Shown here piece after piece: positions 2,043-17,725 of a stretch of DNA of 18,225 nucleotides. Origin of the DNA: an archaeon (GTDB taxonomy: Archaea; B1Sed10-29; JAJSAI01). Position numbers and translations under genes: made by a program. The stretch spans positions 1 through 18,225 of the forward strand of contig JAJSAI010000009.1 of NCBI GenBank assembly GCA_024274695.1, in the 5' to 3' direction. The notes beneath the pieces were generated by a model, which was not told where the DNA came from, made no database searches, and saw nothing but the letters and a program-made list of their open reading frames with translations. Numbering within the stretch: position 1 is the stretch's first letter; the number at the start of each line of letters is the position of its first letter.

Positions 2043-2072
2043 CTCTCTCTTCTTTATACTCTGTTGAGTAGC

Positions 2073-3665
2073 ATGGGGTACCTTGACGAGCTTCTCAAGG
2101 AATCAGCAAAGGCAGTAGAAGAGGAAGAGAAGACGGAAGAGGTCAAAAAAGAAGAGGAGAAAAAGGAAGAGGTAAAAAGGGTCATAGAAGAAGCGGCTGC
2201 GGAAGAAAAGGCAGAAATAGAATACCTCGGGACCAAAACGCTCGTCGCGTCCTACGGTAACGTGAAAATATACAAGGTGGAAGGAGAACCCCTGCTCGTT
2301 TACACGATCCCAGTCATAAAACCCAAGGGCCCCGAAAAAATTCTCGTTAACACCATAAAAGAAGCGGCAACCCGGATAATCACTGTTTCTCCCGAGGAAA
2401 TCAGGGATCCTGAAAGAAGACGCAGGTTCTACTTCGAGAAAGTAAAAGAAATAATAGAGGGGAGTCCTGAGCTAGGGGTCCCGAAGACGAGGGTGGACTT
2501 CTACGCTGACATGGTAGTAAGAGAAATGATCGGCTACGGAATACTAGACCCGCTCGTGCAGGACGACAAGCTTGAAGACATAATGGTAATAGGTCCGGAA
2601 AAACCAGTTTACGTTGCGCACAGAGAATACGATATGATGAAAACCAATGTAATGTTCGCCAACGACGATGAGATAAAGAACATAATAGACAGGATAGCCA
2701 GGCAGGTTAACAGGAGGGTTGACCTGCAGACTCCCCTGCTGGACGCAAGGCTTCCTGACGGGAGCAGGGTGAACGCCACAATAAAACCAATATCCGTGGA
2801 CGGCAACACCCTGACCATAAGAAAGTTCAGGGAAGACCCGTACACTGTTATAGACCTGCTCAAGTTCGGGACGTTCACCCTTGACCTGGCCGCGTTCCTA
2901 TGGCTGGCAGTGGATGGCCTGGGGGCCAAGCCCGCAAACATAATCATTTCCGGAGGAACAGGCTCTGGGAAAACAACAACACTGAACGTGCTCTCCTCAT
3001 TCATCCCTCCGTCCGAGAGGGTTATAACCATAGAAGACACGGCGGAGCTCAAGCTGCCTCTAGAGCACTGGGTAAGGATGGAGACAAGGCCTCCGTCCAT
3101 AGAAGGGAAGGGAGAAGTGAGCATGGAAGTCCTTGTTAAGAACTCGCTCAGGATGAGGCCCGACAGGATAATAGTAGGAGAAATAAGGTACAAGGAAGCC
3201 CAGACCCTGTTCACCGCGATCAACACAGGGCACGACGGGAGCGCGGGAACAGTTCACGCTAACTCGGCTCACGAGACCGTGATAAGGGTAACCTCCCCGC
3301 CCATGAACGTTCCCGAAATAATGCTGGAAGGGCTTGACCTGATAGTCGTGCAGCAGAGGATCCACGATCGGAGGAAAGGGGTCATAAGAAGGGTTACAGA
3401 AGTGGCAGAAGTTACAGGGGTCATGGGAGGAAAACCGCAGATACAAGTAATATTCGAGAGAGACCCTGCCCTGGACACCATAAAAGCCACAGGCATTCCG
3501 AGCAAGTACGTACAAAAGCTCATGAGGTTCACCGGGCTCTCAAAAGCGGACATAGCGACCGAGATAGACAAGAGAAAGGAACTGCTCAAGTCACTTCTGG
3601 ACAGGGGAATAAGAAAACAGGAAGACGTGGTAAGAGAGCTCAGGAAGATCACGTCCCTAGAGTGA
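2073..3665 (+). CDS. Type IV pilus / type II secretion family assembly ATPase (TadA/PilB/FlaI-like)
   Basis: This is a cytoplasmic hexameric motor ATPase that powers filament assembly at the platform proteins encoded next. It has 530 residues counted from ATG 2073. Residues 1-50 are a Lys/Glu-rich low-complexity tail. The catalytic half shows Walker A GGTGSGKT at 294-301, an Asp box VITIEDT at 317-323, a Walker B-type segment DRIIVGEIR at 364-372, and a His box GHDGSAGTVHA at 386-396. This order and spacing define the GspE/VirB11/FlaI family. A TTG nine bases upstream (2064) is the alternative start and fits the TATA spacing for a leaderless message. Thirteen bases separate it from the first TadC gene. 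No archaellum-specific genes (such as flaG, flaF or flaH) are seen beside it, so a pilus role is more likely than an archaellum. Its closest described parallel is the EpdL ATPase of methanococcal pili (inference from gene layout). Confidence 0.95.
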   Translation: MGYLDELLKESAKAVEEEEKTEEVKKEEEKKEEVKRVIEEAAAEEKAEIEYLGTKTLVASYGNVKIYKVEGEPLLVYTIPVIKPKGPEKILVNTIKEAATRIITVSPEEIRDPERRRRFYFEKVKEIIEGSPELGVPKTRVDFYADMVVREMIGYGILDPLVQDDKLEDIMVIGPEKPVYVAHREYDMMKTNVMFANDDEIKNIIDRIARQVNRRVDLQTPLLDARLPDGSRVNATIKPISVDGNTLTIRKFREDPYTVIDLLKFGTFTLDLAAFLWLAVDGLGAKPANIIISGGTGSGKTTTLNVLSSFIPPSERVITIEDTAELKLPLEHWVRMETRPPSIEGKGEVSMEVLVKNSLRMRPDRIIVGEIRYKEAQTLFTAINTGHDGSAGTVHANSAHETVIRVTSPPMNVPEIMLEGLDLIVVQQRIHDRRKGVIRRVTEVAEVTGVMGGKPQIQVIFERDPALDTIKATGIPSKYVQKLMRFTGLSKADIATEIDKRKELLKSLLDRGIRKQEDVVRELRKITSLE

Positions 3666-3678
3666 AAAAGGTGCTATA

Positions 3679-4848
3679 ATGGCTGACGTTGACGAACTGA
3701 AAAAACTCCTTGGCATGAGAAAAGAGCCGGAGAAAAAAGAAGAAAAAAAGCCAGAGCCCAAGCTAACCACGCCAGAGGAATCTCCTCCGGCCACAGGAGA
3801 AGAAATAGACGTTGAAGCCCTTTCTAAAATAGTTCAGAGGATGAGGGCCAAGTATGCTCCCAGGGAAGAAAAGAAGGGAGAGGAAATAAAAAGAATAATA
3901 GAAGCGGCCCCAGCAGTGGAGATCGCCAGGGGCAGGCCCGAGGAACTCAGCCTTGCTCCGGAAAAAGGAGTGCGGACAGTAGGAAAGGTCTACAGATCCC
4001 TGAGCCCCGTGATAAACGTTTTCCTGAAACCTTTCTCCAAGACAATGGGAGAAAGCCTGGGCAAAGACCTGGTGGCGTCAGGAAGCAGGTACACTGCAGA
4101 ACAGTGGCTCGCGCTCTCTCTCACCTCAGCCTTCATGGTCTTCATAGTGATGGTCCTGCTGGCCATGGGCATGATAGCAGGCAATGTCCTAAGCCCTGCC
4201 CTGAGCGTGCTGTTGGTAATAGGCGCGCCAGTACTCGTCTTCTTCATACTCCTCATGATTCCTGGAATGAAGGCAAGGTCAATCGCGGCCCAGATAGAAA
4301 AAGACCTTCCTTTCGCGCTCAGGCACATGAGCATAGAAATCAGGGCAGGAGTCGGAATATACAAGAGCATGGAATCAATCTCAAAATCGGACTACGGCAT
4401 GCTCTCACAGGGCTTCAGGAACGTGCTCCTGCAAATAGAAAAAGGAGTGCCAACAGAAGAAGCCCTCACCAAGTGGGCTGCGAGCACTAGGTCAGAGGCT
4501 CTTAAGAGGGTGGTGGCCCACATAGTCAGGGCCATCAGAACAGGAGGGAACCTGTCGGAAGTGATGATAACAATAGCAGATGACGTGGCCTTCGAGAAGA
4601 GGATGAAAATCGCAGACTTCGCCGAGAAACTGAACCTCATAGGACTGTTCCTGATGATGGGTGCGATAGTAATGCCCGTGCTCATAGGGATACTAACAGC
4701 AATAGGAAGCAGCCCGAGCATAAGCAGTCAGGTGGCGATGTTCAGCGTGTTCACCCCAGAAATGCTCTCGCTGTTCTACTTCCTGATAGCCCCCGCGTTC
4801 ATCCTAATGTTCCTGTTCTTCATAAAATCCACAGACCCCGGAACGTGA
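3679..4848 (+). CDS. TadC/PilC-family pilus platform protein 1 (type II secretion F domain)
   Basis: This is an inner-membrane platform protein that should couple the ATPase to pilin insertion. It has 389 residues. Residues 1 to about 105 are hydrophilic and rich in Lys, Glu and Pro. Membrane segments lie near 143-168 and 172-197, followed by a cytoplasmic T2SSF-type helical domain at about 205-315 (LPFALRHMSIEIRAGVGIYKSM, split by family-typical glycines), then membrane segments near 320-343 and 362-383. The start ATG is preceded by AGGTG at 3669-3673. Its TGA overlaps the ATG of the second platform gene by one base, implying translational coupling. The long charged N-terminal tail resembles that of the ATPase and contains a similar KR-I-IE-A motif. 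The family call is firm; the exact subfamily is not. Confidence 0.9.
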   Translation: MADVDELKKLLGMRKEPEKKEEKKPEPKLTTPEESPPATGEEIDVEALSKIVQRMRAKYAPREEKKGEEIKRIIEAAPAVEIARGRPEELSLAPEKGVRTVGKVYRSLSPVINVFLKPFSKTMGESLGKDLVASGSRYTAEQWLALSLTSAFMVFIVMVLLAMGMIAGNVLSPALSVLLVIGAPVLVFFILLMIPGMKARSIAAQIEKDLPFALRHMSIEIRAGVGIYKSMESISKSDYGMLSQGFRNVLLQIEKGVPTEEALTKWAASTRSEALKRVVAHIVRAIRTGGNLSEVMITIADDVAFEKRMKIADFAEKLNLIGLFLMMGAIVMPVLIGILTAIGSSPSISSQVAMFSVFTPEMLSLFYFLIAPAFILMFLFFIKSTDPGT

Positions 4849-5759
4849 TGCTCATGAACTTCATACGAAAGTACACCGAGACCCTCGAATACATAGGATG
4901 GAAAGCGAAAGCGCCAGTGATAATAGGAGGAGGGATTGCAGGAGCAGTAGCAGCAGTAATCCTCCTGGGCCTAACGTACGACATAGTCCTCGGGTTCCTG
5001 ATTGCGCTCACCCTGCTTGACATCTCCTTCGGGCTCCCGTTCTTCCTCGCGGACAAAAAACTCACGGAAATGGAGAGACGGCTTCCGGACGTGCTCGGGC
5101 ACATGAGTACCACCCTCAAGACAGGCGGGACAATAGAAATGGCCTTGAAGGAAGTCAGCAGGATGGACTACGGGCCCATAACCCCTGGAATGAGGCTGAT
5201 GCTCAAGAACATAAGAGAAGGGGTAACATTTGAAGAGGCCTTCAGGAGGTTCGCCGAGAACAGCAGGTCAGACCTGATCAAAAAAGCAGCCACCATAATC
5301 ATCTCCGCCAGGAGGAGCGGAGGAGCACTGACCGAGACCCTGAACGCCATGTCCCAGGACATCCGGGCCATGGAAAGACTGAACAGGGAAAGAAAGACCA
5401 AGACATTCATGCAGTTCTTGTTCCTGATAACCGCAGGGGTCCTGGTGGCGCCCCTCGTGTTCGGGATCGTGCACTCAGTGCTCATGATCCTAATACAGTC
5501 CTCAGGAGGCGGGGCCGCGGGTGTTGCCGTGACCCCAAGCAAGGGCCTCGCGTCCACGTACAACTTCCTGTTCAAGACCTACATCATAATAGAATCATCC
5601 CTCACGATGATGGGGGCAGTTCTCATAAGGGAGGGTAAGATAAGCAGGAGCGTATTATACGTTCCCCTCGCGGCAATGGCAGCGTACATAATATACACTG
5701 TGGTGGCCGCGGGGTTCATGAGCTTCATAGCCGGAGGAGGCATGATGGGAGGATTTTAA
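4848..5759 (+). CDS. TadC/PilC-family pilus platform protein 2 (type II secretion F domain)
   Basis: This is a second membrane platform protein of 303 residues, distinct from the first by lacking the charged tail. Hydrophobic segments lie near 24-42 and 46-66. The T2SSF-type domain at about 77-185 includes LPDVLGHMSTTLKTGGTIEMAL and a SRSDLIKKAATII stretch parallel to SRSEALKRVVAHIV in the first protein. More membrane segments lie near 190-216, 244-260 and 270-296, and the C terminus is Gly/Met-rich. The start ATG at 4848 overlaps the upstream stop as TGATG; a GTG at 4845 and an ATG at 4854 are alternatives. Archaella usually have one larger FlaJ, whereas paired TadC-type proteins are known from bacterial Tad and methanococcal Epd pili, so the pair points to a pilus rather than an archaellum. 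Confidence 0.9.
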   Translation: MLMNFIRKYTETLEYIGWKAKAPVIIGGGIAGAVAAVILLGLTYDIVLGFLIALTLLDISFGLPFFLADKKLTEMERRLPDVLGHMSTTLKTGGTIEMALKEVSRMDYGPITPGMRLMLKNIREGVTFEEAFRRFAENSRSDLIKKAATIIISARRSGGALTETLNAMSQDIRAMERLNRERKTKTFMQFLFLITAGVLVAPLVFGIVHSVLMILIQSSGGGAAGVAVTPSKGLASTYNFLFKTYIIIESSLTMMGAVLIREGKISRSVLYVPLAAMAAYIIYTVVAAGFMSFIAGGGMMGGF

Positions 5760-6814: not shown

Positions 6815-7837
6815 ATGATCAGCTTGGAGCACGCGCGGCTCTTGACCGCGCTCGCGCTCTTCGGTATAGCGAGCGCACAAGACCTCAGGACCAGGGAAGT
6901 CCCAGACTGGATTCCGCTCCTGCTCGCAGTTTCAGGGCTCGCGCTCGCAGGGGCTGAAGCGCTCGCAGTGCAGAGCATTCTGCCAGTCCTGTTAAGCGCG
7001 GGAATGCTCGTGCTTTGCTTCGCGTTCGCCTACGTGTTGTACAGGCTGGGCGCGTGGGCAGGCGGAGACGTGAAACTGTTCACGGGCCTGGGCGCAGTGC
7101 TACCCTCTTACTCTGGCATGCTGTTCTTTCCTTTCCTCGCGCTTGCCGCGAGCGCGCTCGCGGTATTCCCTTTCCTTGTTTTGTACGTGCTCGCAGGGTT
7201 CAGGAAACCGAGCGTGAGGAGAGAGTTCCTGAAAGAACTGAAAAAGGTTCCTGTCAGGTCCTGGCTCTCGGGATTCATCCTGTTCGCGGGAATAACCCTC
7301 TCAGAGTGGGCGGGCGTCCCCTACGCTTCTCTTGTGCTCGTGCCGGCAATGTACTACACGAGAAGACTTAACCTGTTCACGGTCCCGGCCGTATTCTCCT
7401 ACTCATTCTATCTTGATCCCTTCAGGACGCTGTCCATGCTCTCCTATTCTGTCCTGGTTTCCGCGGCATTCATTCTAGGAACTGTTTCTTTCCGGACCGC
7501 CAGGAAAACCGTGCTCAGGAGAAGAATTCCCGCGCGGGAAGCGCGGGAAGGAATGATTCCCGCAAAAGACTACTGGCTCCTGCCTGACGGCAGGATCATT
7601 ACAACAGAGCCCAGCTTGTTCGGTCCCAGGAAACAGGTTGGCAGGCTGCTTGCTGACTCCAGGAGCGCGGCAGGCCTCACCCCCGAACAAGCCGAAGAGA
7701 TCAGGAGGCTTGCAGGGCAAGGAAAGATCAAATGGTTTGAGGAAAAGCTCAGCATCCCGTTCGTGCCCGTGTTCGCTCTCGGGATACTGCTGGCAGCACT
7801 GTTTCCAGCGGTTTTCAGCATATTGAAAGCTATTTAA
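6815..7837 (+). CDS. Archaeal prepilin peptidase (A24 family aspartic membrane protease)
   Basis: This membrane protease cuts the short basic leaders of class III prepilins. It has 340 residues with several hydrophobic helices. The two catalytic aspartates are expected at D23 (in SAQDLRTREVPDW, after the first helix) and D85 in the motif AGGDVK, equivalent to the GxGD/GGAD motif of TFPP and FlaK. It is longer than a minimal FlaK of about 230 residues because of a C-terminal region with REGMIPAKDYWLLPDGRI, an EEIRRL helix, and a final IPFVPVFALGILLAALF membrane segment; this resembles the archaeal A24 C-terminal extension that Pfam calls Arc_PepC. The ATG at 6815 has a TATA box at leaderless distance. 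It sits between two groups of prepilin genes, its likely substrates. An EppA-like role, specific for pilins rather than archaellins, is the best guess. Confidence 0.93.
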   Translation: MISLEHARLLTALALFGIASAQDLRTREVPDWIPLLLAVSGLALAGAEALAVQSILPVLLSAGMLVLCFAFAYVLYRLGAWAGGDVKLFTGLGAVLPSYSGMLFFPFLALAASALAVFPFLVLYVLAGFRKPSVRREFLKELKKVPVRSWLSGFILFAGITLSEWAGVPYASLVLVPAMYYTRRLNLFTVPAVFSYSFYLDPFRTLSMLSYSVLVSAAFILGTVSFRTARKTVLRRRIPAREAREGMIPAKDYWLLPDGRIITTEPSLFGPRKQVGRLLADSRSAAGLTPEQAEEIRRLAGQGKIKWFEEKLSIPFVPVFALGILLAALFPAVFSILKAI

Positions 7838-7839: not shown

Positions 7840-7861
7840 TTAGGCTGTGTTATTATACTGG

Positions 7862-9583
7862 ATGGCTGTCAAAAAAAGAAAGAAAGCTAAAAAGATCCCG
7901 ATAAAAATTCCTATCGGGATGAGAGGAGACAGGTTTTCTTTACGCGGAAAGAGCATTCCTGCAGAAGAGGAAACAGTTCTCTCAAAAACAGTTAAAGAGG
8001 CGAAGGAGGCCATCAAAAGGTGGGAGAGAGCAGAGCGGCTGACCGCGGAAAAAGAAAGGCAGATGAGAACTCCAAAGCTTACTCCCATAACCAAAACAAA
8101 GCTCGAGAACATACAGAGGATAAAAAGGATTATAATAAAAGGCACGGGCCTTGCGGCCTTGAAAGGAACTTCTTCTAAAGAAAAAGAGCTGCTCAGGTCA
8201 CGGATAGACACCCTCAACAGAGTTCACGACTTTCTCAAGACCGCGAGCGTGAAAGAAATAGCAGACTCGCTGGCCAGCAGGAAACAGTTCTCTCACATGA
8301 TAAACAAGGAAGTGTCAGAAGAAGAGTTCGCTGTGATAAAAAAATCAATAGCGCTCGCTAAAGACAAGGATGCTCTCCTCAGGGGGCTCAGGGCAACAAG
8401 AGGAGAACTTGAAAGAATGTTGCGCGCGTCCCCTGAAAAGATTCCGGCGCCTGCAAAGGGTATTGAAAGAGGAGAACTCGCCGCTGCAGAAGCGTTCAGC
8501 GTGCCCGCAGGCCTTCTGTACACGAGTATCGTGTCAGATCCCAAGTTGACTGCCAAGTTCATAAAAGAAATGAGAAAAGCAGAAAAGACTCTTTCCAAGG
8601 GCAGGATCCCCTCCTTCTTGAGGGATCCCGCGTCCTTCAAGAAAAAGTTCGGGGTGACACCAACACAAGACGAGCTGGAGGCACTCACTAACATTGCTCG
8701 CGCCGGAAAAGTGAGCGCGCTTGAAGAGGGGCTTTCCAGAATAAGTGTAGAGAAACCGTTCGAGGAAGTTGGAGAATCAAAAAGAAGACTAGACCTTTTC
8801 ATGAGGGAAATGGAAAGAGCAAAGGCACAGATAGACTCCGGAGAAGTGCCAGAGTTCCTGAAATCCCCTGAAGCGTTCCAGAAAAGGTTCGGGGTAAAAC
8901 CCTCCAAGCAAGCCCTTGGGGAAATAAGAAGAATGATCAAAGAGGGGCAGGCTGACCTACTGTTTGAAGGAATAAGGAGGGCGAGGCAAGCGCAGGGCAG
9001 GCTGCTCCAAGGAGACCTTAAGAGAATAAGGGACGCAAAAGCAGAGGTTAGAAGAGTATCTGGAATCAAGCTCTCTCTAGGAGTCAAGCGGCTGGAGGCA
9101 TTCAGGGATTTCAATCAAAAGCTCCTGGAGCTAATGGAAAAGAATAAAGAGAAGATAATCAGGGGCGAGCTGCCAGAAGAACTGACCAACGCGAAGAAGT
9201 TCAAGAAGTACTTCGGACTCACTCCAGAAGAAGCCGAGGAAATAAGCAAGAGGATAGAAAAAGGAGCCTTGATAGGTGGCGCGGCGGGAACCGCCACAGG
9301 CACAGCCCTTGTTCTCTCCCAGGCAGCCCTATTCTCTCCAATACCTCTCGTTATCCCTGTAACATCTTACGCAATAACCGGTTTTGGTTTGGGGGGATTG
9401 GCAGGAAAAGCAGGGGAAGAGGGAGTGTATAAGGCAAGGCAACTGAAGACCAAGAAAACCGTGAAGGGAGTTAGGACGGAAAAGGATTATAACCTTTTTA
9501 TTCGCGCGCTTCGTGCAAACATACGTGAAATAGACAAGAAGATAGAAGAGGCGTATAAGAAAAGCGGAGGTCGGAAGAAGTGA
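7862..9583 (+). CDS. Basic helical repeat protein of unknown function with a Gly-rich hydrophobic segment
   Basis: I do not recognise this protein. It has 573 residues from ATG 7862 (an in-frame GTG at 7847 lies upstream but the TATA spacing favours 7862). The N terminus is very basic (MAVKKRKKAKKIPIKIP), and most of the chain is charged and helical. A unit of about 60 residues recurs at roughly 233-294, 313-374 and 417-470, with a weaker copy at 123-177; its core is G-x-[IVL]-P, a hydrophobic pair, then F-x-K-x-FG-[VL]-x-P. Residues about 469-520 are rich in Gly, Ala and hydrophobic residues (GGAAGTATGTALVL, then GFGLGGLAGKAG) and could form two short membrane helices; a basic tail follows. 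No signal peptide or enzyme motif is seen. Its stop overlaps the GTG of the giant exported protein by four bases, so the two are probably co-translated. A scaffold or cytoplasmic-face partner of the pilus is possible but unproven. Confidence 0.8.
   Translation: MAVKKRKKAKKIPIKIPIGMRGDRFSLRGKSIPAEEETVLSKTVKEAKEAIKRWERAERLTAEKERQMRTPKLTPITKTKLENIQRIKRIIIKGTGLAALKGTSSKEKELLRSRIDTLNRVHDFLKTASVKEIADSLASRKQFSHMINKEVSEEEFAVIKKSIALAKDKDALLRGLRATRGELERMLRASPEKIPAPAKGIERGELAAAEAFSVPAGLLYTSIVSDPKLTAKFIKEMRKAEKTLSKGRIPSFLRDPASFKKKFGVTPTQDELEALTNIARAGKVSALEEGLSRISVEKPFEEVGESKRRLDLFMREMERAKAQIDSGEVPEFLKSPEAFQKRFGVKPSKQALGEIRRMIKEGQADLLFEGIRRARQAQGRLLQGDLKRIRDAKAEVRRVSGIKLSLGVKRLEAFRDFNQKLLELMEKNKEKIIRGELPEELTNAKKFKKYFGLTPEEAEEISKRIEKGALIGGAAGTATGTALVLSQAALFSPIPLVIPVTSYAITGFGLGGLAGKAGEEGVYKARQLKTKKTVKGVRTEKDYNLFIRALRANIREIDKKIEEAYKKSGGRKK
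7895..7920 (+). other. Perfect 9-bp inverted repeat just inside the operon's first gene
   Basis: ATCCCGATA at 7895-7903 is matched by TATCGGGAT at 7912-7920 across an eight-base A/T-rich loop. It lies 33 bases after the start codon, close downstream of the inferred start site. It could be an operator or RNA hairpin, or a by-product of codons for the IPIKIPIG peptide. Confidence 0.4.
8228..9274 (+). repeat. Four diverged copies of a ~60-residue protein repeat inside the helical repeat gene
   Basis: Copies lie at about 8228-8392 (weak), 8558-8743, 8795-8983 and 9110-9274. The second and third align without gaps over 63 residues with 21 identities by my count, including GxxPxFLxxPxxFxKxFGVxP. 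The fourth keeps G-E-L-P, then FKKYFGLTP and EEAEEI. The first keeps only hydrophobic positions and an E-rich turn. The repetition is at protein level; the DNA copies have diverged. Confidence 0.7.
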
Positions 9584-12500
9584 GGGTCAAGCTCTTCATG
9601 CTGCTCCTGTTGTCTGTCACCATATCTCTCGCGATAACATCTGACATAAAAGGGTTTGATGTTAAACGCAACGGGGAAAGCCTTCCTGCGGGAGCGTGTG
9701 TCAAAGGAGGAGAAGTTCTGACAGTCAGTAATACTGGCTTGGGCGTTAAAGACGTTCCCACCGGGGCCATGGTGAGCTCTAAGGGATGCGTGGCGGACCT
9801 TCCGGGAACAGGGGTATGCTTCTCCTGTGGAGGAGTAAAGCTCACGAGCACAGAAGGATGGACCAAGACCCTAAAATACTCCTACCAGTCCTGCCCGTAC
9901 GAGGGAAAAACATGCTATATCTCCAGAGAAGACGAGTTCATCGTCCCGTCAGGAGAAAGCCACTACGGGGAAGAGTTCACGGTAGGACTGTACGCTGGAG
10001 CAGCGTACGCACAGTGGTTCGGCGTAGAAACATTCCTGTTTTGTGCTAACAAGGACACTAAAACAAGGTCTTTCCTGATAGGGGAGTGCTCTTCAGACTC
10101 TGACTGCCCAAACGGGTTCTGCGGTTCTGACTGCATGTGCCACTCGCTGGAGGAAGAAGGCTGGACCCATCCAAACCACAACTCTTACGGGGACGGCAAC
10201 ATCAGGCGAACTTCCGCTTGGGGGCAAGTGAAAGAATTCTCTGAAGAAAATCCCTTTGACAGTAATAACGTGAACAGGCTCTGGGAAGCCCAGTTAAGCG
10301 GGTCGCCTAAAGGAGCTGCCAGGTGGGCTGCACCAATATCATTCGTTGAACCGGACTCTGACAAGAACCTTGTGGCAGTATACGAAGGGTATGATAGCAC
10401 TTCTGTGAGCAGGTCAGGGGGATGTACTAACTTTTTGGGGAGGTATCTTCTAACAAAAGTAGAAAAGTTCTCCGCAATTCACAAGATAGCAATATTTGAC
10501 GGTAGTACCGGTAAAAAAATAAACGAGATAAACTTGGTCCCTTATGTTGACACGGTCAGCAGGGGGGGACTATTTAATTCACTCGCCGCATGCCAGCAGG
10601 CTTACAATGATCCTCTGGTGCCCTCATCCAGTTTCGTAAACGAGAGAGACTCTCCCGCGTTAGAGTACATGGCCTTTGTTCCGGCTTCAGAGAGTCAGAC
10701 CCTCGTGTTCTTGTACAGGTATAAGGACTATAGCACCACTGCCAATGCATACAAAAAACTCGCGTACGTTGAAAAGCCCTGGGACAGTTCCTCGTCTGTT
10801 AGCATGGTCACCAAAATAGACCAGACTAACTGCGGTGACGGGATCGTTGACCTGGATGATGACAAGCATTACGTGCTCGCCGTCACGCCAATGAAAATGG
10901 GTTTGTACACTGATCTCTTCGTGACGTACCTTGACGACGGGAAGATTAGGGGCGCGAATGTCAGGCTGTCTGGTGATACCCTCAGAGTGTACCAGTCAAA
11001 GGACGGCTGCAGGAGAAAATCATACGATTTGGGTAATGCGAAGCAGGGCCTGCTTTCAGCAGGAACCCTGCAGAACGTGGAGTTCACAGGATCTCCCGGG
11101 ACTATTGAGATGGGTTCATTTTCTCTCATACAGTCTGGGGGAACTCCTGTTACTTACACTGGGGCGTGGAGGGGTATTTCAGCGTATATCACTGCCGATT
11201 GGGATGAGAGGACAATGCTTCTCTCAAACCCATACTATGCTTCATCGTCTGCAGACAGCGGTGGGTTCGTGTACGATATAGCCGGGTACGCGAGGAACAA
11301 GTTCTACGTGCGCAGGGTTCACGCGACCACAACATCAGGAGACGTTTCCGGCGACGTGGAGCTTTTGGGCGAGTACTCCCTGGCCGATTACGACGGTCAC
11401 TCTAGCATGGCCAAGTTCCTGTTAAAAGACAATCCCGACCACTACTTCATGGCGGTGGTCAAGCCAGGAGGGCAGGGGATAATGTTCGTCTCCGTGCCCA
11501 AGACCAGCTGCGATCCTTCAAAGGACAGCCTCTGCAGTTACAAGTCCTGTGGTCAGGGAACGTGCAAGTGGGAGTACAGTCTGCCCTTCACAGCAGCCGG
11601 ACTGGCTGCCTCAGCGGATCTTGACGGGGACGGGAACGATGAGATCATCCTCGCCGGAGAGGACGAAAGGATACACTTCCTAAGGTGGACCAAAAGCGGA
11701 GGGTTCAGTGTTCTCGGAGAATCCAAGCCACTTGGAGGAGAGATCACGGGAATAGCAGTTGACGATGTTGACCGGGACGGGTTCCTTGACATTCTGGCCT
11801 CAGTGGACACGACGGTTTCCGGGAAGCTTGTCGTGTTATCCTGGCTTCCCCCCTGCAAGGTGAGCTTCACCGTGGACAACATGGTGTGCGCTGAGGACGG
11901 TGCCACTGCATTATACTCCTTTAGTGTCCTGTTCCCGAGAGCAGGTATGCAGGGCAATGCAAGGGTGTACCACACGTACTGGGGTACCCGGAAGGACTAC
12001 ACAGACTATCCTGAGCCCGTGGGCTCGGGAGCGTACGGTTACTCTCACACTTTCAGCACGAGCGCAGGGGATATAGACCTGTCCACGCGGGCGGGGAAGG
12101 TAAGCTGGAGTGCTGTGGAGATAACCCCCGTGTATCACGGTGTGACTCTTCCTGACAGCGCTTGCCTTGACAAGGACCTTATGTACATCCTGGGAGGAAA
12201 GATATCCCCTGAACTGCCCGCAGGAGTCACAAGACCAGGTGACGTGAGTTTCACGGTAGAACAGCAAGGAGAGATCCTGAACCAGCCGAAGGCAGGGACC
12301 AAGATCCCCGCGGACGTGACCTTTATCGCAGACAACATTAAGGAGTACACTCACTGCAAGGTCTCGGAAGGTTATGATGGGTTCGGGCCCGGCAGCGAGA
12401 TCGCGCTGGACATGAACGGTGACGGTGTCTACGAGTCCTGGAAGTTTGACTCAGACGTGAGCGATACGATCAAGTACGAGAACGTACGGGGCGCGTCCTG

Positions 12501-14085
12501 CGTTCCTCTTGGGGACACTTCATGGAGGGCCTGCGAGCCCACGTCTTACGGGGAGGGTAAAGCGTTGTCAGAAGGTTGGATAGTGGTGCAGGACCCGGGG
12601 CATACTCTGAAGTACGTCCTAGGAGGCTCCTGCGGCACGACCACTGACCAAAAACTGTTAGAACCTGGTACGTACCCCGGAGCGTTCAAGGCATCGTACA
12701 CCACGCCTGGGAAGACTTTCGAGCCGCGGGCTGTTTTCAAGTTCCACGATCTTGAGGATACGAAAGAAGACGGGTCCCAGGTGACCCGCAAGGGGCCGGC
12801 CTGCACCGCGAGAACAACGGTCAGTACCGCGAGCGCGCCAGAGTGCTCGGTCAGCATAACCCCTTCATCAGACTACCTGTGCTACGGTCAGCCAGCAGAG
12901 TTCACTGTCTCGTATGATGACGAATTAGGCTCTCCGGGAGAAGTCACCGTGGACTTCGGAGGAGGAAACAAGAAGACAGTCACTGTGAACAGCGGGGACA
13001 CTGTTCTCGTGTCAAACCAGTACCCTGCCGAAGGAACATACTCTGTCAGGGCTGACGCGGTCGGGAAAGAATCAGGGGCAAGATGCTCTACAGAAGTTCA
13101 GTTCACGGTGAACGAGAGGAGAGAGGACGTGGAACCCTTCGTGCAACCGCGGGTAGTGTGCACCGCCAGTGTCCAGGAGCTCGTGCTAACCTGCACCGAC
13201 CAGAAGGGAGCGCCAGTGCCCGCTGGCACGGTCACTGGCTGGAGCGTGACCGTGAACGGGGAGGACAAGTCCAGCGAGTGCAGTGCGGGGAGCAGCACGT
13301 GCACGATACCCCTGTCAGGGTTTGACACTCAGGACTTCGTGTACACTGCAGCGTGCCAGGTGAGCGGGACAGAATGCTACGTTTACGCTAAGACCAGCGC
13401 GAGCACTTCCGGGGACTTCAACTGTTCTCTCGCGGGACAGCCGGCAGAGGAAGAGGGGGCAGTAATCTCGGACGTGTCCTGCAGCCAGGTCTCTGACAAG
13501 GGCTACGAGGAACCCTTGGACTGCGTGGTAACCCGTTCAGGGAAAACAGTCAGCGGCGTCCAGTCAGTAGAGTCAGTAAACTGCCCTGGTGTTGAAAAAG
13601 ACCACCAGGTGGTCTGTCATGTCAAGGTCAAGAGCACCGTCGGGGGCAGCATGAGCCTGGAAGCCAATTCAGGGACATTCCCCCTGAAGAGCCTCGGAAC
13701 TAGTGGGTGCCCGCCGAATCAAATATGCAACGATCTTACGACCACTGTCCTGTTCCCCCAAGGGGGAGGGGAGGCCACAGCGGTCCTGAAGTTCCTCCCG
13801 AACAAGTACGGGGCCAAAGGGACCGTGAGCCTGTTCCTCTTGGACCAGAACGGCTTCCCAGAAGACTCCGCTTCAATAACAGTAAGCGTTGTGGAAGCGC
13901 CGGGCAAGTGCTCCGAGGACTGCAAGTACTGCGCCACGCAGACAGCGTGCCAGTCCAACCCGAACTGCGAGTGGACCGGAGCCGAGTGCAAGTACCGGCA
14001 GGTAGGTGGCCTGCCAGAATATCCTGAGATGGCGCTACTCGCGGTCGCAGGCTTCTTCGCCGTGATACTGCTTAAAAGGAAGTGA
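9580..14085 (+). CDS. Giant exported, membrane-anchored surface protein with calcium-loop propeller-like repeats (possible pilus tip adhesin)
   Basis: This 1501-residue protein has an N-terminal signal peptide (MRVKLFMLLLLSVTISLA). A short cysteine motif, CSSDSDCPNGFCGSDCMC, lies at 170-187. The region from about 240 to 760 looks like a propeller, with repeated hydrophobic strands and two FG-GAP/VCBS-type calcium loops, ADLDGDGNDE (about 679-690) and DDVDRDGFLDI (728-738). A third loop, LDMNGDGVYES, is at 943-953. A PKD-like domain lies at about 1089-1178, followed by more cysteine-rich Ig-like stretches. A compact cysteine cluster from C1444 (CKYC, CQSNPNCEWTG) precedes a tripartite tail LPEYPEM, a short hydrophobic stretch and KRK. 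The GTG start overlaps the upstream stop by four bases and has GGAGGT at 9566-9571. The protein is probably displayed on the outer face of the membrane. Position before minor pilins suggests a PilY1-like adhesin role (inference). An S-layer-associated role is the alternative. Part of the N-terminal third has lower G+C than its neighbours. Confidence 0.85.
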   Translation: MRVKLFMLLLLSVTISLAITSDIKGFDVKRNGESLPAGACVKGGEVLTVSNTGLGVKDVPTGAMVSSKGCVADLPGTGVCFSCGGVKLTSTEGWTKTLKYSYQSCPYEGKTCYISREDEFIVPSGESHYGEEFTVGLYAGAAYAQWFGVETFLFCANKDTKTRSFLIGECSSDSDCPNGFCGSDCMCHSLEEEGWTHPNHNSYGDGNIRRTSAWGQVKEFSEENPFDSNNVNRLWEAQLSGSPKGAARWAAPISFVEPDSDKNLVAVYEGYDSTSVSRSGGCTNFLGRYLLTKVEKFSAIHKIAIFDGSTGKKINEINLVPYVDTVSRGGLFNSLAACQQAYNDPLVPSSSFVNERDSPALEYMAFVPASESQTLVFLYRYKDYSTTANAYKKLAYVEKPWDSSSSVSMVTKIDQTNCGDGIVDLDDDKHYVLAVTPMKMGLYTDLFVTYLDDGKIRGANVRLSGDTLRVYQSKDGCRRKSYDLGNAKQGLLSAGTLQNVEFTGSPGTIEMGSFSLIQSGGTPVTYTGAWRGISAYITADWDERTMLLSNPYYASSSADSGGFVYDIAGYARNKFYVRRVHATTTSGDVSGDVELLGEYSLADYDGHSSMAKFLLKDNPDHYFMAVVKPGGQGIMFVSVPKTSCDPSKDSLCSYKSCGQGTCKWEYSLPFTAAGLAASADLDGDGNDEIILAGEDERIHFLRWTKSGGFSVLGESKPLGGEITGIAVDDVDRDGFLDILASVDTTVSGKLVVLSWLPPCKVSFTVDNMVCAEDGATALYSFSVLFPRAGMQGNARVYHTYWGTRKDYTDYPEPVGSGAYGYSHTFSTSAGDIDLSTRAGKVSWSAVEITPVYHGVTLPDSACLDKDLMYILGGKISPELPAGVTRPGDVSFTVEQQGEILNQPKAGTKIPADVTFIADNIKEYTHCKVSEGYDGFGPGSEIALDMNGDGVYESWKFDSDVSDTIKYENVRGASCVPLGDTSWRACEPTSYGEGKALSEGWIVVQDPGHTLKYVLGGSCGTTTDQKLLEPGTYPGAFKASYTTPGKTFEPRAVFKFHDLEDTKEDGSQVTRKGPACTARTTVSTASAPECSVSITPSSDYLCYGQPAEFTVSYDDELGSPGEVTVDFGGGNKKTVTVNSGDTVLVSNQYPAEGTYSVRADAVGKESGARCSTEVQFTVNERREDVEPFVQPRVVCTASVQELVLTCTDQKGAPVPAGTVTGWSVTVNGEDKSSECSAGSSTCTIPLSGFDTQDFVYTAACQVSGTECYVYAKTSASTSGDFNCSLAGQPAEEEGAVISDVSCSQVSDKGYEEPLDCVVTRSGKTVSGVQSVESVNCPGVEKDHQVVCHVKVKSTVGGSMSLEANSGTFPLKSLGTSGCPPNQICNDLTTTVLFPQGGGEATAVLKFLPNKYGAKGTVSLFLLDQNGFPEDSASITVSVVEAPGKCSEDCKYCATQTACQSNPNCEWTGAECKYRQVGGLPEYPEMALLAVAGFFAVILLKRK

Positions 14086-14088
14086 GCT

Positions 14089-14256
14089 ATGATGGACAAC
14101 AAAGCACAGGTTTCGCTTGAATACCTTACCATGGTTGCGATAGCACTCATGCTGGCCGCGATAGCAACCCTGCTAGCGGCCAGGCTGTTCAGCATAAAAG
14201 ATGATGTTAAGAGCACTATAGAATTGTACCGCAACAAGACAATACAAATAGAGTGA
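14089..14256 (+). CDS. Second mini-prepilin with class III signal, 55 residues
   Basis: The product opens MMDNKAQVSLEYLTMVAIAL, continues as a hydrophobic helix to about residue 34, and ends in a short charged tail with KDDVKSTIELYRNK. Cleavage after K-A would leave about 49 residues starting QVSLEYL with Glu at +5. It is a paralogue of the mini-pilin at 5761, sharing the DNKAQ opening and the Ala before the cut, but its tail differs. It begins three bases after the giant protein's stop and ends four bases before the next prepilin, so it belongs to the same operon. The second ATG (14092) would make the start identical to the paralogue. AAAGGA at 14075-14080 is a plausible SD. It may be a helix-only core subunit or a connector for the minor pilin complex. 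Confidence 0.83.
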   Translation: MMDNKAQVSLEYLTMVAIALMLAAIATLLAARLFSIKDDVKSTIELYRNKTIQIE

Positions 14257-14260
14257 TCCC

Positions 14261-14869
14261 ATGATGCTGACTTCAAGGAAAGGCCAGGCTTCCTTTGAGT
14301 ACCTGCTCATAATCGTCGCGATACTGTCCCTGGTGACTATCTACACCCTCTCAGCGTCCCGGGTTGTAAAGGTGAGGCAGGGTGTGAACGAGACCCAGGA
14401 GCTGTACGCTAACTACTCCGGGGACATGCTCTCAAAACCCAACTGCAGGATCCTGTTCAGGAAGTGCGGTTCAGGATGGGGTCCGGGTACGAGTATTGCA
14501 ACGGACTACGATCAGGACGGAGAACTAGAATCGTACGAGTACACCATGGACACGGGAGTGGTCAGAATAAGGCTGCTCGGCCGCACAAAAGAAGGGTATC
14601 CGATCTACTACGCTCAGGTTCCGTCAAAAGGAGGGCTTGTCCAAAGCGTTGACATAGGCTCTCTCTCAGGACAGATTATCACACTCCCCGGGGAAGAGAC
14701 AGCCAAGCCAGGACTACCGCAGCAGGAGACCAGCTGGGTTACAGGAATAGCTGTTAACACCAACCCCACGGACCCTTCCGGCCAGTACCACTTTTACGAG
14801 CAAGGAGGATCCTGCCCGACTGACCCATTCCCCCTCTCTCAACCAGGAGTTGATGAAACGTGCGCGTGA
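14261..14869 (+). CDS. Class III minor pilin with a calcium-loop motif
   Basis: This 202-residue protein has the leader MMLTSRKG, a cut after G8, and a mature start QASFEYLLIIVAIL with Glu at +5 and a helix to about residue 31. The outer domain holds NCRILFRKC (61-69) and then an EF-hand-like loop, TDYDQDGELES (81-91), with Asp at 82, 84 and 86. The segment around it closely matches residues 934-956 of the giant exported protein encoded just upstream, so the two may share a small calcium-binding fold. The C-terminal part is Pro/Gly/Thr-rich with a final Cys pair. The stop overlaps the next start. Size and context suggest a minor pilin displaying a domain at the filament tip or surface. Confidence 0.87.
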   Translation: MMLTSRKGQASFEYLLIIVAILSLVTIYTLSASRVVKVRQGVNETQELYANYSGDMLSKPNCRILFRKCGSGWGPGTSIATDYDQDGELESYEYTMDTGVVRIRLLGRTKEGYPIYYAQVPSKGGLVQSVDIGSLSGQIITLPGEETAKPGLPQQETSWVTGIAVNTNPTDPSGQYHFYEQGGSCPTDPFPLSQPGVDETCA

Positions 14870-15294
14870 AAAAAAGAAGAGGCCAGGCGGCAATAGAATA
14901 CGTTGCGGTGCTCACCCTAATGCTCATACTACTGATAGCCCTGGGCATGGACCTAATGCAGTCAGCCATAGCCAGCACAGGCGGAGCTGATGCGGACGCG
15001 TTGTTAAAAAAGACTGCAAAGGATCTTGGGCTCGCGGTCTGGGAGGTTGAGAACCTGCAGACCTTCCGAAGAGTGCAGGTCACGGTCCCAGCAGACTGCG
15101 AGTACAGAGTGTACGAGAACGCGGTCTGGAGCTACTGCCAGGTGGATCCCAGCGACCCCAGCAGGATAGAGAAGAGGGTGCTCGCGGCATCCAAGAAAGT
15201 CAGCTTCGGCCCTGACCCGCCGAACACGGTAGGGGATATGGACCAGGGCACGACGAGCACGGGAGTGATAACTGTTGCACCAGCACAACCATGA
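14860..15294 (+). CDS. Class III minor pilin-like protein
   Basis: This 144-residue protein has the leader MRVKKRRG, a predicted cut before QAAIEYVAVLTLMLILLIALG, Glu at +5, and then an exposed domain. The domain holds one cysteine pair in PADCEYRVYENAVWSYC, and the tail is rich in Asp, Pro, Thr and Gly. The start is a GTG at 14860 that overlaps the previous gene by ten bases; a GTG at 14866 would give the usual four-base GTGA overlap and a leader two residues shorter. GGAGTTGATG (14846-14855) could serve either. The P-x-DC-x-Y-x-V element recurs in the next protein, suggesting the two belong to one family or contact each other. It should be a peptidase substrate and part of the minor pilin complex. 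Confidence 0.85.
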   Translation: MRVKKRRGQAAIEYVAVLTLMLILLIALGMDLMQSAIASTGGADADALLKKTAKDLGLAVWEVENLQTFRRVQVTVPADCEYRVYENAVWSYCQVDPSDPSRIEKRVLAASKKVSFGPDPPNTVGDMDQGTTSTGVITVAPAQP

Positions 15295-15298
15295 CCTG

Positions 15299-15751
15299 AT
15301 GAGGAAGGGACAGGTCACGATAGACTTTCTCGTGACATTGACAGTGGTAATGATATTCTTTTTCTCGATAACCTTCCCGCTCATGCAGGACTCTCTCAAG
15401 AACGCGGGAGTAATGCAGTCTAGGGAGTTGATTAACGCGGACGCGCAGAAAATAAGGATAATCGTGAACAGCCTCGTGCAGTCGGGGGCAGGGGCCAAGA
15501 AAGTACTGGACCTCAGAGCACCTCCTGACTGCTACTACTACGTGAACGAGACGGTCCTAGAAGGAGGGTACGCTGCCTGGAAGCTTGAGGCACTATGCCC
15601 TGACCAGGGCCTGCACGAGATCCTCGGGTACCCTGCCTACGGGATAAAGTACGACTGCCCGTCCTGCAAAACCATTACAGTGGGAGGGGAGAACCACAAG
15701 GGGCTGAAAGGAGGAGAAAAGAGTGGGTTCGTCATCAAGCGAATATACTAG
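15299..15751 (+). CDS. Class III minor pilin-like protein with Asp at +5
   Basis: This 150-residue protein has a very short leader, MRKG, then QVTIDFLVTLTVVMIFFFSI, so the usual Glu at +5 is replaced by Asp. The outer domain contains PPDCYYYVNETVLEGGY, parallel to the Cys element of the preceding gene, and ends with cysteines in CPDQG and YDCPSC. The ATG at 15299 lies five bases after the upstream stop. An in-frame TTG at 15275 would add eight non-leader-like residues and is not favoured. No clear SD is present, so translation probably depends on re-initiation from the upstream gene. Its last 29 bases overlap the next gene. Loss of the Glu suggests a specialised, perhaps terminal, subunit. 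Confidence 0.83.
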   Translation: MRKGQVTIDFLVTLTVVMIFFFSITFPLMQDSLKNAGVMQSRELINADAQKIRIIVNSLVQSGAGAKKVLDLRAPPDCYYYVNETVLEGGYAAWKLEALCPDQGLHEILGYPAYGIKYDCPSCKTITVGGENHKGLKGGEKSGFVIKRIY

Positions 15752-16148
15752 AAAAGGCCAGGCGTCCCTGGAAATACTCGTGATAATCGCGGCAGTCACG
15801 TTCATAGTCAGCGTGATAATGATAGACGCGATGACCGAAACCCACAAGACCCTGATACTTTCGGGGGTGAAGAACACCGCCAACTACGAGATAGGGATGA
15901 TGATAGTCCAGAACGGAGCATGCGCTGGGACAAGGATCTCGCACCTGACAATGACAGAGGACACGATCACGGTAGGCCTTGAAGGCCCGTGCGCTCCAGA
16001 GCAAGAGGAAGAGCAAAACTTCCTGAACATTTTAGAACAGGGTGTGGAAACCAACTACTGTGGGGTCCCGGAAGAAGGGTACTCTCCCGATGGCGTGATC
16101 TCGTGCGGCGGGCAAGATTACGCTCTTGAATACTATTCCGGAGGATGA
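15723..16148 (+). CDS. Class III minor pilin-like protein
   Basis: This 141-residue protein has the leader MGSSSSEYTRKG, a cut before QASLEILVIIAAVTFIVSVI, Glu at +5, and an outer domain with four cysteines (GACAG, GPCAP, NYCGV, ISCGG) and an acidic EQEEEQ stretch. The GTG start lies inside the previous gene, giving a 29-base overlap. It is well supported because AAGGAGGAG (15708-15716) precedes it at about seven bases and no other in-frame start exists before the K-G cleavage site. Its stop lies inside the region that forms the SD and start of the next gene (GGAGGATGACC). It is probably another component of the minor pilin complex. Confidence 0.85.
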   Translation: MGSSSSEYTRKGQASLEILVIIAAVTFIVSVIMIDAMTETHKTLILSGVKNTANYEIGMMIVQNGACAGTRISHLTMTEDTITVGLEGPCAPEQEEEQNFLNILEQGVETNYCGVPEEGYSPDGVISCGGQDYALEYYSGG

Positions 16149-16150
16149 CC

Positions 16151-17725
16151 ATGAGAGTAAAAAAATGGTACGAGCAAAGGCACGGATCGGCCAAAGGCTA
16201 TTACATAATGCTAATGGAAGCCAGCGTGCTCTCGTGCCTGCTCGTGTCAGCAGCCTCCAACTTCCTCCCAGGATTATACTCCCTGAACGTTCTGCCCGCG
16301 GCAGGGCTAGCGCTCTCCCTGTACCACTTCGGCAGAGAATACAAGAAAGAATTCCTTTCCCACGCGATCGTCTTCGCGGGCCTGTTCCTGTTCGCGTTGT
16401 ACGCGCCCTGGCTGATGAAATCCCTGGCAGCAAGGCTCTCACGAGAACCCTTGTCAGCAGCAAGGGAAACAGCAGTAGGGGCAGTGGTTGTCCTTCTCGT
16501 GTTCGCAGTCCTCAGGACTGTTTTCAGGAAAAAAACAGTAGAAGGCAAGGTCATAATGGCTGACAAAGAAAACGCGGTCGTGAGAATAGACTACGACATC
16601 TTCGCTGGGATCAAGGCAGGAGAGTACGTTGTCAAGAACAATGGAGCCAGAAAAGGAGACACTGTAACCGTGGAGCTGGAAACGAGTTTTATTAAAGGAG
16701 TAAAACCCTCAAGAATAGTAATGAAACCTTCCCGGAGAAACAGAAGGGCGGGAAAGCGGAAGAAAGGGCTGGTAAGCATTGATGCGATAGCAGCCATAGT
16801 CCTGCTGCTCATGATCCTCGTGGCAGTCCAGAACTATGCCACGAGTATGAACAAGCAAGCGAAAGAATACGGGACCGCGATCCAGGCCAAGGCTGCTTCC
16901 ATCGGAATGGGGTCCAGGATGAACGCGCTCAAGGCCCTCGGGCTCGGGCCAGCGGACTATTACAACGCAAGGTCAAAAGTTCCCGTGATAAGCGTGAGCC
17001 CCACGGAATACGAGGAAGCCAAGATCACTAAAAACAAGGGAGAAAACGACGTTCACACCCTGTTCGGAGAATACGAGTTCACGTACCCCGCCCCATTAGA
17101 CTACTACTATTACAACGGGTGCATCGCGTCCAACCCCGCGGTCATGCAGTCCGCCTGCAAGACAAGCCTGCCCCAGTGCACTGTCAAGTTCAGGCACTGT
17201 TCCAGCAAGGGATACCTTGAACCGGGGAACACCTTTTCTATACGTGATAATGAACAGCAGGAACTTCTCACGTCCTATGTTCTGAAACCAAAGCAAGTGG
17301 AATATTCCGGTCATATCTTTGATTCCGTTGACACAATCACCCTAGATGAACTTAGAACATACTTTGATGATGCAGGGTTTGTCCCCCCGGACTTTTTCCC
17401 CTCAGATTACTACTCACAGGAGTACGCTAACCTCTACGCTCTTTGCCTAGACTCATTGGGAGGGCCTGGGAATACCCAGGGGATTGAGGTAGCTCACGTT
17501 TACAAGGGAAAGGAAGGCACTCCTTACGCTAACACGTACACGATATCCTGCGGTTATAATAATAGACAGGCTGGTCCTCTTACTGGAGGCACTCAGTACC
17601 TTTGTGGTGAAGACCCCAGAACATATAACGGGTACTGCTTCCCCTTGTACACGATCGGGGGAGACTGTGACATAAGGCCAGAACCGAACCTGAACTATTA
17701 TCCTGAGAAAGAGGTATGCGAATGA
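16151..17725 (+). CDS. Fusion of a polytopic membrane domain (DUF2101-like) with a class III pilin-like protein
   Basis: This 524-residue protein has two halves. Residues 1 to about 190 carry four hydrophobic segments (near 20-38, 45-59, 72-88 and 108-124) and then a small beta-rich cytoplasmic domain (VEGKVIMADKENAVVRIDYD, AGIKAGEYVV, TVTVELE), a pattern I associate, without proof, with archaeal DUF2101. After a very basic linker comes KRKKG at 202-206 and LVSIDAIAAIVLLLMILVAV, a class III signal with Asp at +5, then an ectodomain of about 290 residues with ten cysteines. The ATG at 16151 is chosen over 16145 because GGAGG (16140-16144) is six bases away; the earlier ATG has no room for an SD. 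The stop overlaps the next ATG by four bases. The middle of the ectodomain gene (about 17200-17640) has lower G+C. If the peptidase cuts after G206, the membrane domain would be released as a separate protein. Confidence 0.82.
   Translation: MRVKKWYEQRHGSAKGYYIMLMEASVLSCLLVSAASNFLPGLYSLNVLPAAGLALSLYHFGREYKKEFLSHAIVFAGLFLFALYAPWLMKSLAARLSREPLSAARETAVGAVVVLLVFAVLRTVFRKKTVEGKVIMADKENAVVRIDYDIFAGIKAGEYVVKNNGARKGDTVTVELETSFIKGVKPSRIVMKPSRRNRRAGKRKKGLVSIDAIAAIVLLLMILVAVQNYATSMNKQAKEYGTAIQAKAASIGMGSRMNALKALGLGPADYYNARSKVPVISVSPTEYEEAKITKNKGENDVHTLFGEYEFTYPAPLDYYYYNGCIASNPAVMQSACKTSLPQCTVKFRHCSSKGYLEPGNTFSIRDNEQQELLTSYVLKPKQVEYSGHIFDSVDTITLDELRTYFDDAGFVPPDFFPSDYYSQEYANLYALCLDSLGGPGNTQGIEVAHVYKGKEGTPYANTYTISCGYNNRQAGPLTGGTQYLCGEDPRTYNGYCFPLYTIGGDCDIRPEPNLNYYPEKEVCE
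16687..16696 (+). promoter_or_regulatory. Possible internal TATA box before an in-frame ATG at 16721
   Basis: TTTTATTAAA sits inside the fusion gene, ending 25 bases before an in-frame ATG (16721). This is the same spacing as at the leaderless peptidase start. The shorter product would begin MKPSRRNRRAGKRKKG, a normal-looking class III leader. The match may be chance; no other support is visible. Confidence 0.3.

Follow-up and report, generated by a model that had tools for sequence, protein, structure and literature searches.

Two proteins encoded close together in an archaeal pilus locus, a giant surface protein and a small pilin, each contain a stretch of 26 residues centered on a calcium-type loop. 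Is this one small fold used twice, or a loop of a common kind that has come to look alike in two otherwise different proteins? The first-pass annotation had read the pair as a single small calcium-binding fold. We find that the two loops were accurately described, belong to a known kind, are encoded in one operon and resemble each other more than chance alone usually gives; the likeness is probably genuine but local. We consider it reasonably likely that the two segments are calcium-stapled beta-hairpins of the Dx[DN]xDG class, placed in the heads of two extracellular proteins that have no domain in common.

The pilus locus and its two loop-bearing proteins

The window, i.e., the whole stretch of 18,225 nucleotides analyzed here, belongs to an archaeal genome of 825 kb in 32 contigs that is 91% complete. 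A threonyl-tRNA synthetase gene is followed by genes for a pilus assembly ATPase, a pair of T2SSF/TadC-like proteins, two proteins with a class III signal peptide and a prepilin peptidase; 3' of the peptidase gene lie genes for a 578-aa protein, the giant protein, a 55-aa class III protein, a 202-aa pilin and further pilin-like proteins.

2064..3665, + strand, pilus assembly ATPase (T2SSE)
3679..5759, + strand, two T2SSF/TadC-like membrane proteins
6815..7837, + strand, prepilin peptidase (Peptidase_A24, FlaK-like), from a family match
9580..14085, + strand, giant surface protein, 1501 aa, the open frame given by the first-pass annotation
14089..14256, + strand, 55-aa class III signal peptide protein in the interval between giant and pilin, PF04021 at 28.2 bits
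14261..14869, + strand, small class III signal peptide protein, 202 aa, probable minor pilin, Pfam PF04021
14276..14341, + strand, pilin residues 6-27, matching the class III signal peptide family PF04021
14860-15294, 15275-15751 and 15723-16148, + strand, three more small pilin-like genes, overlapping

Pilus machinery genes flank both the giant and the pilin genes. From the giant gene onwards, neighboring genes overlap or stand a few bases apart, which is consistent with a single operon, and we infer that giant and pilin belong to one type IV pilus operon. Among the three small pilin-like genes, 15723-16148 has a class III signal (E 7e-4) and 14860-15294 a TadE-like match (E 0.06). The 578-aa protein (7847-9583) is rich in lysine and glutamate, its gene runs a few bases into the start of the giant gene, and it matched no family above that family's cut-off. 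A 526-aa protein (16145-17725) encoded amid the pilin-like genes matches DUF2101, a predicted membrane protein family, over residues 109-192 (E 1e-7).

The giant protein has an N-terminal signal-like segment, FG-GAP repeats at residues 680-743, a PKD domain at 1091-1174 and a C-terminal hydrophobic anchor. Its FG-GAP_3 match (37.4 bits, residues 680-739) contains two calcium-type loops. The protein matched neither PF05567 (up to E 1) nor DUF2341. Its C-terminal tail (window 13996-14085), GLPEYPEMALLAVAGFFAVILLKRK, resembles PEF-CTERM sorting tails, and no PEF-CTERM-type NCBIfam match was obtained up to E 1. The genome has three matches above cut-off to TIGR04178 (exosortase/archaeosortase), a family that several control genomes match too.

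The 202-aa protein combines a class III signal peptide (PF04021, 23.9 bits against a cut-off of 23.7) with a hydrophobic helix, drawn at residues 7-32 in the model. Its position after the peptidase gene and the two class III proteins upstream make it a probable minor pilin.

Compared with window 7847-14085, related genomes differ in what follows the peptidase gene. In the pilus locus of one relative (G006, L058:7742-14890), a class III protein of 2383 aa that contains a Laminin_G_3 domain is encoded 3' of the peptidase gene; the pilus locus of another (G005, L057:283-3699) encodes a CARDB-containing class III protein of 1139 aa; and three loci of relatives (L055, L056 and L059) have no large protein after the peptidase. 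The pilus locus thus seems to acquire large surface proteins that are specific to a lineage.

A likeness confined to 26 residues

The shared element and the calcium-type loops of the two proteins are located as follows.

12379..12456, + strand, shared element, giant residues 934-959, from the BLASTP alignment
14474..14551, + strand, shared element, pilin residues 72-97, from the BLASTP alignment
12409..12435, + strand, calcium-type loop DMNGDGVYE, giant residues 944-952
14504..14530, + strand, calcium-type loop DYDQDGELE, pilin residues 82-90
11617..11643, + strand, calcium-type loop DLDGDGNDE, giant residues 680-688, in an FG-GAP repeat
11764..11790, + strand, calcium-type loop DVDRDGFLD, giant residues 729-737, in an FG-GAP repeat

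The first-pass annotation had aligned GFGPGSEIALDMNGDGVYESWKF (giant residues 934-956, 12379-12447) with GWGPGTSIATDYDQDGELESYEY (pilin residues 72-94, 14474-14542) over 23 residues without gaps. Its coordinates are correct, as are its count of identities (11 of 23) and the pairing of aromatic residues that it described (F/W, W/Y and F/Y). BLASTP widens the pair to 26 residues with 12 identities (E 3e-4), and the local score of 66 compares with a maximum of 51 in 60 shuffles. With the giant segment as query, a whole-genome search recovers the segment itself and the pilin only, the latter at E 0.003; in the converse search, with the whole pilin as query, the giant segment appears at E 0.05, ranked under several matches based on the signal peptide. 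Common to both segments are GxGPGxxIA before the loop and ES followed by an aromatic residue after it. By contrast, the remark that both segments follow a nearby Cys is uninformative. The cysteines are out of register (C926 of the giant lies eight residues before the match, and C62 and C69 of the pilin 10 and 3 before it), and a Cys within 10 residues upstream is found at 28% of positions in the giant.

The similarity is not limited to a generic DxDxDG loop. The nine-residue loop contributes 18 of the 66 BLOSUM62 points and the flanks score 48; with most of the score outside the loop, the match exceeds a generic one. When the loop was held fixed and the flanks were randomized, with 400,000 trials in each of three pools, a flank score of 48 never arose with two pools and arose with a frequency of 2.5e-6 with the third. 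These trials disregard the strand-like preferences common to real loops, and we therefore rely more on counting real loops. The Dx[DN]xDGxx[DE] pattern has about 200 DNA matches summed over 19 genomes of the phylum, and one unrelated loop there, in an FG-GAP-like blade of another genome (L070), is 13/21 identical to the giant segment and reaches 27.3 bits, the same bit score as the pilin against that segment. Thus, about 0.5% of loops match it equally well. As a control, the giant segment was searched against 115 genomes of another archaeal phylum and gave one match at E ≤0.05 (best 0.028), indicating that the E-values are not inflated. A profile built from the two segments recovered the L070 blade and PDB chain 6mlt_A, a hemolysin-related protein (E 0.049); its best E was 0.07 in another 50 genomes, most of them relatives reached via the locus. 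Some relatives have 20-43 matches to the DNA pattern, compared with five in the 825 kb of this genome.

Outside the element, the two proteins show nothing alike. Extension of the alignment past the edges of the 26 residues scored 0 on either side. Neither the segments nor the pilin head nor giant residues 841-1087 matched a Pfam family up to E 10, and a search of solved structures yielded no match to the pilin, to the giant or to its middle region. Single-sequence AlphaFold (AF2) models had mean pLDDT values of 32 and 42 and were too poor to superpose; they show strand-loop-strand in both proteins at a confidence too low to count as evidence of a fold. Judged by sequence, giant and pilin appear to have no domain in common. 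Of the claim of one small calcium-binding fold in two proteins, the calcium-type loop in both and a similarity that reaches beyond it and above chance hold, while the shared fold is not supported, with no common family or solved structure; "one small fold used twice" exceeds the evidence. It is accordingly very improbable that both proteins contain a single larger calcium-binding domain with which they bind the same partner: the local match speaks for such a domain, as does a third protein, pilin-like at its start and encoded in an archaeon of the same order, that carries IVIDYDNDSVYESAYFDVD (E 0.12), but similarity ends at the 26 residues, no family is common to the two proteins, their cysteines are out of register and no partner is known.

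This third protein is a 422-residue frame (L071:457-1722, in the genome G006) with a pilin-like hydrophobic start, and its IVIDYDNDSVYESAYFDVD resembles the second half of the shared segment. A pilin encoded near it on the same contig (L047:3389-3775) contains DGDQDGVFED. A regular expression for wider loops picked out two further pilin-like proteins with such loops, which is weak evidence.

Class of the loop and origin of the likeness

Both loops follow the D-x-[DN]-x-D-G pattern (DMNGDG from giant residue 944, DYDQDG from pilin residue 82), and both have an acidic ligand two residues past the motif, E952 in the giant and E90 in the pilin. The resulting Dx[DN]xDG-x2-[DE] spacing is that of the calcium blade, known from integrin, PilY1, a fungal lectin and rhamnogalacturonan lyase (PMC3123361), and the two loops in the FG-GAP repeats of the giant have the same spacing as its 944-952 loop. 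A location in a propeller blade was not found at the level of sequence: the segments lack a Pfam match and the FG-GAP match stops at residue 743. Because the giant segment has no match to FG-GAP or another family, "calcium blade" refers here to loop spacing only. An EF-hand was rejected for the giant, in which loop position 12 is K955 and not acidic; in the pilin alone this position is acidic (E93), and the low-confidence models draw no helices around either loop. PKD-type loops (DFDGDGTYD) were also rejected as the origin, with scores of 34-36 that lie almost wholly within the loop.

We predict that both loops bind calcium. Each segment would form a hairpin of beta-strand, calcium loop and beta-strand, in which one Ca2+ per loop would be held by the Asp/Asn side chains of loop positions 1, 3 and 5 and by the Glu of position 9. 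The bound ion may then lock the hairpin within the extracellular head. In the giant, the hairpin would be sited between the FG-GAP repeats and the PKD domain, and in the pilin, it would follow the class III helix, as part of the globular head.

How might two such hairpins have come to be so alike? Internal duplication, one of the origins previously proposed, is unlikely to have been recent: at the DNA level, 37 of 78 bases (47%) are identical and the same codon is used at 3 of the 12 shared residues, which makes a recent copy or gene conversion unlikely. When relatives of the giant and of the pilin head were sought in 19 genomes from the phylum, the searches returned signal-peptide matches only, or none, and there were none among the open reading frames of 176 loci, including the pilus loci of related genomes. 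A strict form of the DNA motif had no hit in the genome_contigs collection, while the same pattern recovers both copies in the window; a shorter form had none in viral contigs, nor did a protein search of these contigs give a match. The pilin segment found nothing in 23 genomes of a further phylum, a search that, without a positive control, shows little.

The likeness of the hairpins would then reflect either convergence on one favorable hairpin or an old transfer of the loop. We lean slightly to convergence, based on the general account in PMC3123361 and on the equal likeness of the L070 loop elsewhere. The flanks, however, are more alike than pure convergence usually gives (P ~2.5e-6 or less, by shuffling), and this leans towards local homology, i.e., a hairpin copied long ago between genes of the operon, or derived from a common propeller blade, of which 26 residues are left alike. 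Besides the flank score, it is in keeping with local homology that, among the matches listed, equally high-scoring loop pairs fall within one domain family each, that the two genes are near neighbors and that four of the five matches to the DNA pattern in the genome lie in these two proteins. Against it, the DNA and the codons hold no trace of copying, an unrelated blade matches the giant segment equally well and no intermediate form was found. On balance, we regard local homology as possible but unlikely. It is more doubtful still that a calcium-binding hairpin moved between these two neighboring pilus-operon genes, as a real case of loop transplant.

A chance likeness between two generic acidic loops, picked out by comparing many segments, gains support from the one unrelated loop in about 200 that matches equally well and from the several proteins of the operon that were available for comparison. 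Against this, the genome itself has only five such loops, four of them in giant and pilin (pattern matches at 11617, 11764, 12409 and 14504), and a match as good as the whole-genome E of 0.003 was absent from the 115 genomes of the other phylum. We therefore hold a purely chance origin to be improbable, and continue to favor two hairpins of a known calcium-loop class in otherwise unrelated heads.

Comparison with known calcium-binding systems

Rigden et al. (2011; PMC3123361) weigh loop transplant against convergence for Dx[DN]xDG loops and hold transplant to be the less likely. The giant/pilin pair is one candidate case for how these loops reach unrelated proteins, and is so far a single pair without relatives. 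Calcium governs the assembly and adhesion of some bacterial pili, and metal sites occur in archaellins; a calcium loop in a surface protein and a pilin of one operon, if true, would suggest that calcium tunes this archaeal pilus. Had the hairpin been transferred, matched hairpins might let the two proteins respond jointly to calcium.

With the calcium blade (PMC3123361), the two segments share the loop consensus, the extra acidic ligand, probable flanking strands and an occurrence in extracellular proteins. However, such blades are parts of beta-propellers, while no propeller family matches either segment and the pilin is not large enough for a whole propeller. FG-GAP repeats (PF13517, PF01839) come closer in that the giant itself has two of them, with the same loop spacing, and that the FG-GAP-like L070 blade matches its 934 segment; the FG-GAP match nevertheless does not include this segment, for which Pfam gives nothing even at E 10.

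Among pilus proteins, the locus resembles those of the PilY1/PilC tip adhesins in that a large protein with candidate propeller-type calcium loops is encoded beside probable minor pilins. PilY1 and minor pilins are described as forming a priming and tip complex (PMC7541494), and PilY1 is described as calcium dependent (PMC8833165). The giant differs from these adhesins by lacking PF05567 and DUF2341 and by having a C-terminal hydrophobic anchor. The archaellins ArlB1 and ArlB2, archaeal subunits of type IV pilin-like kind, likewise bind a metal in their extracellular head, modeled as Ca2+ and held by Asp/Asn/Ser residues; the ArlB1 ligands (D154, D156, S158, N166 and D169), by contrast, form no DxDxDG loop (PMC8821640). 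Archaeal pilus loci with large proteins have been described: some of these proteins contain DUF2341 and have been compared with the PilY adhesins, and one large protein, which has a transmembrane domain at its C terminus, has been taken as S-layer-like (PMC4858521). The giant protein would fit this general picture of large proteins encoded in archaeal pilus loci.
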